Below are positions 56,668 through 56,756 of a stretch of 64,000 bases of DNA, piece after piece. The translations under genes and the position numbers were made by a program. The notes under the pieces were generated by a model. That model searched no databases, was not told the DNA's origin, and worked only from the letters and a program-made list of their open reading frames with translations. Source of the stretch: Acinetobacter sp. ANC 4862. Lineage in GTDB: Bacteria; Pseudomonadota; Gammaproteobacteria; Pseudomonadales; Moraxellaceae. How positions within the stretch are numbered: position 1 is the first letter of the stretch; each line of letters starts with the position of its first letter. The DNA lies in NCBI RefSeq assembly GCF_004336635.1, contig NZ_SJXH01000013.1, positions 1 through 64,000 on the forward strand. The letters run 5' to 3'.

Positions 56668-56675
56668 ACACTCAC

Positions 56676-56705
56676 CATAAAAAAGGGCGGTTGATTTCCG
56701 CCCTT
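56676..56705 (-). terminator. Intrinsic terminator between zipA and ligA, inside the ligA leader
   Basis: The minus strand reads stem AAGGGCGG/CCGCCCTT with loop AAATCAA, then T6. The T run ends about 10 bases ahead of the ligA ATG, overlapping the region of its ribosome site. Because the ligA promoter lies upstream of it, every ligA transcript must read through. Confidence 0.8.
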
Positions 56706-56727
56706 AAAAATATTTTATCTACTCGCT

Positions 56728-56756
56728 ATTATAGAAATCGAGTCCGTCAGTTTCAA
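56728..56756 (-). promoter_or_regulatory. Sigma-70 promoter for ligA
   Basis: On the minus strand, TTGAAA (56751-56756) and TATAAT (56728-56733) are separated by exactly 17 bases. The -35 touches the zipA stop codon. The start site is expected near 56721, giving a leader of about 54 bases that contains the terminator hairpin. Confidence 0.7.

Follow-up and report, generated by a model that had tools for sequence, protein, structure and literature searches.

LigA, an NAD-dependent DNA ligase, is essential and usually considered constitutive. In the E. coli rpsU-dnaG-rpoD operon, a terminator just upstream of dnaG keeps a replication gene low; the genes and the stem are other than those considered here. 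The E. coli rimP operon is regulated by antiterminators, and we know of no antiterminator regulation of ligA.

The closest described system is the rimP leader (Rfam RF01770). Naville and Gautheret (2010, PMC2965389) presented it, in their main text, as a terminator of short length that has a conserved GGGc...gCCC stem and a U-run but lacks a larger conserved element; its common form there has no antiterminator and lies close to the gene. According to the same text, an inverse CCCg...cGGG terminator occurs in tandem at rimP in several gammaproteobacteria, and recognition by a protein was proposed, with NusA as the candidate. The operon-internal stoichiometry terminators described in PMC9045158 likewise place a hairpin between operon genes, the downstream gene being lowered by partial termination; that paper concerns clostridial ABC importers, whereas much of Acinetobacter has a predicted promoter between zipA and the hairpin described below. 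Long-read data from E. coli, as given in the main text of PMC6131387, show frequent read-through at terminators (5% or more at 75% of sites), which can depend on growth condition. Neither PMC2965389 nor PMC6131387 names ligA in its main text, and no paper evidently devoted to a ligA leader or terminator in these bacteria was found in the open-licence literature, taken without supplements (an earlier listing in a table is possible). Here we describe a hairpin in the ligA leader of Acinetobacter that is probably an intrinsic terminator of the rimP-leader kind, fixed in the leader and passing part of the RNA polymerases.

The ligA leader in the window

The window is the whole stretch of DNA that was analysed, 64,000 nucleotides from Acinetobacter sp. 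ANC 4862. Its minus strand carries, in order, zipA, TTGAAA-17-TATAAT, AAGGGCGG-AAATCAA-CCGCCCTT, T6, GGTGA and the ligA ATG. The features are as follows.

56758-57702, minus strand: zipA, the upstream gene (open reading frame; name from the preliminary description and gene order)
56760-56758, minus strand: zipA stop codon
56751-56756, minus strand: -35 box TTGAAA (promoter scan)
56728-56733, minus strand: -10 box TATAAT (promoter scan)
56683-56705, minus strand: leader hairpin AAGGGCGG / CCGCCCTT with the 7-nt loop AAATCAA (scan and folding)
56679-56684, minus strand: U-tract T6 (from sequence)
56672-56676, minus strand: ligA Shine-Dalgarno sequence GGTGA (from sequence)
54628-56667, minus strand: ligA, NAD-dependent DNA ligase, 679 aa, ATG at 56667 (open reading frame)

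The preliminary description had placed a TTGAAA-17-TATAAT promoter at the zipA stop codon and a strong stem with T6 between its start site and the ligA ribosome site. Both were confirmed, with the -35 box starting one base past the stop codon and with the first two T of the tract able to base-pair to the two A of the 5' arm. In a scan of 48-64 kb, the promoter sequence (56756-56728) was the sole match at 11 of 12 positions, and the hairpin (56705-56683) had the most GC pairs, six of eight, of the terminator-like sites; the same scan detected no terminator on the opposite strand at the hairpin. The leader up to the U-tract folded at -13.8 kcal/mol (z -3.26). The element thus has the form of an intrinsic terminator, a GC-rich hairpin with a U-run directly after it, and some of the polymerases would be expected to halt at a stem of about -14 kcal/mol with U4-U6 behind it. 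Because site totals in the 48-64 kb region were not above those of shuffled sequence (26 promoters where 33.5 were expected, and 12 terminators where 14.8 were expected), chance is ruled out by conservation and not by the scan.

A transcription start 7 nt past the -10 box would fall at 56721 and give a ligA leader of 54 nt. The Shine-Dalgarno sequence pairs with the 16S 3' end. At positions 56664-56678 of the window, ATGGTGAGTGTATGA forms a frame of four codons, overlapping the start of ligA, that is not preserved across the genus. A short upstream open reading frame from the ATG of ATGGTG was rejected, as its frame relative to ligA varies by species and the ATG is absent in at least L084 and L150; the motif appears better read as a Shine-Dalgarno sequence than as an upstream start.

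Conservation of the hairpin in Acinetobacter

Matches to ligA were obtained in all 175 genomes of the genus, and the upstream region was examined in 156 of the 175. In five genomes (G021, G022, G043, G057 and G159) the ligA match came in three or four pieces, which may reflect a split gene, extra copies or an assembly error. A zipA match lay upstream of ligA on the same strand in 148 of 150 loci.

Conservation of the hairpin, proposed earlier as a check, was borne out: it was intact, with at least T4, in 147 of the 156 loci. The core stem of these intact loci was GGGCGG/CCGCCC in 114, GGGTGG/CCACCC in 17, GGGTGG/CCGCCC in five and AGGCGG/CCGCCT in four; two each carried GGGCGG/CCGCCT and TGGCGG/CCGCCT (single T-T mismatch at the base), and GAGCGG/CCGCTC, GAGTGG/CCACTC and AGGTGG/CCACCT were found once each. 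Changes on both sides were seen at three of the six core pairs (pairs 3, 5 and 6), with pairing mostly kept. Over 70 distinct elements, pairing was kept in 418 of 420 cells, and 1000 shuffles reached at most 412. TTTT followed the 6-nt core arm immediately in 147 of 147 intact loci. These four T reached 2.0 bits, and 27 of the 30 columns upstream of the hairpin were at or below 0.6 bits. Loop lengths were 4-8 and once 16, a variation that suits a hairpin in RNA better than a DNA site bound by a dimer; a DNA operator of the dimer-bound palindromic type was ruled out on this varying arm spacing.

The exceptions were nine loci. Four of them (L067, L076, L082, L084) had a shortened 3' arm, a weaker fold (-8.1 to -8.6 kcal/mol) and an eroded T-tract, and L091 had the same shortened arm with TTTT retained. 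In one species (L142), the hairpin and the ligA Shine-Dalgarno sequence were separated by about 280 bp of inserted DNA, which may be a miniature transposable element. No such hairpin was seen in L171, where zipA and ligA overlap, or in L173, and L175 had an unrelated hairpin with T5 at roughly the same position. Since these nine of 156 loci are without the intact element, the hairpin is strongly kept yet evidently dispensable in evolution.

In 141 of the 147 intact loci, the GG of the Shine-Dalgarno sequence lay 14 nt from where the 3' arm begins. Such constant spacing is not predicted by pure termination and would be compatible with a function in translation or mRNA stability. The main rival to termination is accordingly that hairpin and U-rich stretch act chiefly in the translation or stability of the ligA mRNA, with the stem as a 5'-end shield, a U-rich ribosome (S1) landing site and the Shine-Dalgarno sequence held at a set distance, and with termination incidental. 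Besides the spacing, this reading could draw on the four loci with an eroded T-tract, which still keep a weaker hairpin, and on the 21-27 nt between stem end and ATG wherever the Enterobacteriaceae have a terminator (29 loci). Against it, an S1 site would not need TTTT exactly at the end of the core arm, as found without exception, and a stem and U-run of this strength would be expected to stop some polymerases anyway. We consider it unlikely that translation or stability is the main role. A weak alternative pairing is conceivable: between the 3' arm and the Shine-Dalgarno sequence with the next bases, the mean longest pairing run was 4.11 against 3.80 in shuffles, and seven of 114 leaders had a run of 6 or 7 with the 5' arm.

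Position and rarity of the stem

In 146 loci with zipA in view, the zipA stop codon and the stem were 16-401 nt apart (median 55); in these loci the first aligned codon of ligA followed the end of the stem at 14-25 nt (median 18). In the 16 intact loci with spacers above 150 nt, the stem lay 17-20 nt from ligA and 133-401 nt from zipA, and so did not travel with zipA as the spacer grew. Because the zipA-to-stem distance varies widely and the stem-to-ligA distance stays narrow, the hairpin evidently belongs to ligA. The preliminary description had also held that all ligA mRNA must read through the hairpin, and the short distance to the gene supports this; as there is hardly any room for a promoter between hairpin and ligA, read-through would be the source of ligA mRNA.

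Some zipA-ligA spacers contained repeats of other kinds. Inserts that resemble one another, each a few hundred nt long and bearing the inverted repeat CTTACTTTTG...CAAAAGTAAG, lay upstream of the ligA leader in L103, L114, L121 and L146, and related inserts with one arm only were present in L099 and L102. A second inverted repeat (TTGCGA/TCGCAA or TTGCAAC/GTTGCAA, in some cases imperfect) lay just 5' of the ligA hairpin in L130, L131, L137, L138 and L140.

Terminators so close to a start codon were rare. Under one fixed rule, applied to 344 kb of Acinetobacter DNA, one of 304 open reading frames of at least 100 aa had a terminator ending within 30 nt upstream of its start, and this was ligA. 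The motif GGGCGG..CCGCCCTTTT was present in exactly one copy in 15 of 21 genomes and absent from the other six. A scan of species genomes for this motif gave 107 stretches, of which 80 were examined. Four came from other bacteria, none of them at ligA, and 76 from Acinetobacter; tblastn confirmed 75 of the latter to lie 5' of ligA, and the remaining one (L261) ends at the locus edge and has the same sequence. A generic genus-wide terminator motif was ruled out by this single-copy occurrence and placement at ligA.

Recurrence outside the genus

In other genera of the Acinetobacter family, one of 20 loci had a terminator within 120 nt of ligA, at 95 nt. The proportion was two of 30 in other gammaproteobacterial families (best 30 of 143 genomes) and 19 of 30, with varied stems, in the order of E. 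coli (best 30 of 79 genomes). Of these 19 terminators, 12 lay within 30 nt of the ligA start; shuffled sequence gave 12 of 1220.

Within the Enterobacteriaceae (E. coli and the best 30 of 50 genomes; L298 and L373-L401, with L344 also in the order-level set), the terminator stem ended 21-27 nt 5' of the ligA ATG in 29 of 31 loci. A CCCCCG/CGGGGG stem, usually with T5-6, was present in 26 of the 31, and a compensatory CCCCCA/TGGGGG stem in L393. The E. coli example is the following.

L298:2678-2747: E. coli MG1655 zipA-ligA spacer, with ACCCCCG-CTTGT-CGGGGGT then T4

The arrangement thus recurs in two lineages, Acinetobacter and the Enterobacteriaceae, with stems that differ between them and are conserved locally.

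These comparisons bear on whether the hairpin is an ordinary zipA terminator that lies close to ligA only through a short spacer. The differing stems of the 19 loci in the order of E. coli would fit such a terminator, as would the terminator-like hairpins seen by eye near the zipA stop codon in other genera of the Acinetobacter family (L155, L159, L164). However, the stem stays at ligA in the 16 long-spacer Acinetobacter loci, an observation that only leans against this explanation, given the few possible insert sites between stem and Shine-Dalgarno sequence, and the terminator likewise stays at ligA in four loci of the Enterobacteriaceae whose spacers measure 145-255 nt. A zipA terminator placed behind a predicted promoter, as it would be in much of Acinetobacter, would also be self-defeating. 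Finally, terminators at the 3' end of ligA vary in stem. Among the 30 closest loci, 22 had one, two of these more than 140 nt away, and their 5' arms were of 16 kinds, including near-variants; the leader stem was GGGCGG/CCGCCC in all 30 of the same loci. On balance a zipA terminator is improbable.

The predicted promoter and the sequence 5' of the hairpin

Of 112 distinct regions, 78 had an exact TATAAT within the 75 nt upstream of the hairpin, against 9% expected in shuffles, and in 73 of the 78 it lay 17-26 nt 5' of the core. TTGAAA or near forms recurred 16-18 nt 5' of TATAAT in many species. The hairpin was also present where no -10 box was evident (for example in L104, L125, L128, L132, L135, L145, L148, L149, L174 and L176), and across the loci compared it is more constant than the predicted promoter. 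A link between promoter strength and U-tract length gave a Fisher p of about 1e-17 (152 rows), but U-tract state changes only twice on the tree; with support from none of five independent pairs, the link was dropped as evidence for tuning.

The distance from the predicted start to the hairpin core was 10-19 nt in 120 of 123 measurable loci. This bears on the proposal in the preliminary description that the leader has the layout of an attenuator. The layout itself is real and genus-wide; a conserved sensor or leader peptide 5' of the hairpin was not seen. Nor did the 17 nt 5' of the core offer a mutually exclusive antiterminator, as their mean longest pairing run with the 5' arm was 3.82 against 3.71 in shuffles. 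Nothing was found that links the ligA leader hairpin to DNA damage or NAD. In the window no Rfam family reached its gathering score, with one sub-threshold sRNA match (E 0.76) in the region, and the single sub-threshold Rfam match at E. coli ligA was on the opposite strand. A classical attenuator that reads NAD or DNA damage through a leader peptide, riboswitch or antiterminator would accord with the layout and with the use of NAD by LigA; because no antiterminator or sensor is visible, such a switch is not supported, and in the short stretch before the core we regard it as very improbable.

It is equally hard to credit that the terminated RNA of about 45 nt is a trans-acting sRNA regulator: promoter and terminator do frame a short transcription unit, and the main text of PMC7815308 describes E. 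coli sRNAs that arise by premature termination, but the stretch 5' of the hairpin is hardly conserved, with no seed visible, and a word search of the main text of an A. baumannii Hfq interactome paper (PMC12802169) did not return ligA.

Comparison with the rimP leader

The Acinetobacter rimP leader had the form GGGCG-loop-CGCCC-TTTTTTATTGG in 13 of 13 genomes (L424-L436), and thereby shares a GGGCG/CGCCC stem and TTTTTTAT with the ligA leader of the window. Its stem begins about 126-143 nt 5' of the start codon. In the 13 genomes, GGGCG-N3-10-CGCCCTTTT (GGGCG/CGCCC with T4) occurred at 33 places: 13 at rimP, 10 at ligA, eight at four palindromic terminators counted on both strands, and two others, one of which lies between two co-oriented genes. 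In the remaining three of the 13 genomes the ligA stem was GGGTGG/CCACCC.

Several traits of the rimP leader recur at ligA. The stem is conserved in sequence as GGGC...GCCC with a U-run (the GGGCGG/CCGCCC of 114 of 147 intact loci), and no conserved antiterminator or aptamer was seen, pairing having been compared over the 17 nt 5' of the core and 60 nt from the Shine-Dalgarno sequence. The ligA leader differs in its gene and in that its core ends 8 nt from the Shine-Dalgarno sequence. RF01770 lies upstream of rimP, and the gene downstream of this hairpin is ligA. The RF01770 covariance model gave no match with E of 1 or below in positions 56600-56800. Across 11 genomes none of the matches listed was over the cut-off; they were sub-threshold, terminator-like matches of a level that is uninformative, as the model also matches 12 of 14 control genomes at it.

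In E. coli, rimP is preceded by CCCCGATTTATCGGGG-T6 and then GGGCTTTAGGCCC-T7. Under a looser rule than that used for Acinetobacter, three of 93 annotated E. coli starts (rimP, rbfA and mlaE) had a terminator stem ending within 30 nt upstream, and two of these three, rimP and rbfA, have GGGC/GCCC stems. The stem common to ligA and rimP is GGGCG/CGCCC in Acinetobacter and CCCCG/CGGGG in the Enterobacteriaceae, with rimP there seen in two genomes, those of E. coli and one relative. A sample of 0.9 Mb from the Enterobacteriaceae had CCCCG..CGGGGTTTT four times, twice with the rimP tandem (E. coli, and G739 as judged by identical sequence). CCCCCG..CGGGGG was absent from this sample, which is without ligA. 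Because CCCCG was tied as the commonest of 45 kinds among the 75 terminator-like stems of the same DNA, its sharing by ligA and rimP in the Enterobacteriaceae is weak evidence. The whole parallel between ligA and rimP was spotted after the fact and is suggestive only.

Proposed function of the ligA leader

The comparison shows the anatomy of the element, its conservation, covariation and fixed position, and the rarity of its stem; that it terminates, to what degree, and that a factor acts on it are inferences. With the hairpin read as a leader terminator, transcripts from the promoter behind zipA, or running on from zipA, would meet it; a share of them would end as an RNA of about 45 nt, and the remainder would become ligA mRNA. 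Partial termination of this kind would cap and tune the supply of LigA. The conserved stem common to the rimP leader suggests that a general transcription factor, with NusA as a candidate, may modulate termination. As a more speculative extension, which we put forward as possible and think rather doubtful, ligA and the rimP-nusA-infB operon could belong together as a small regulon whose members share leader terminators with a conserved stem. Read-through at both would then be set by a single factor, NusA or another partner of RNA polymerase, through recognition of the stem or of the paused complex, and DNA ligase supply would be coupled to the condition of the machinery for transcription and translation.

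For a gene commonly taken to be constitutive, a terminator that is seemingly obligatory for its transcripts, genus-wide and with a parallel in the E. coli family, means that LigA may have its level set at a step later than initiation. In sharing its stem with the rimP leader, the ligA hairpin offers a concrete lead to a common trans-acting factor, which the main text of PMC2965389 left as a proposal.
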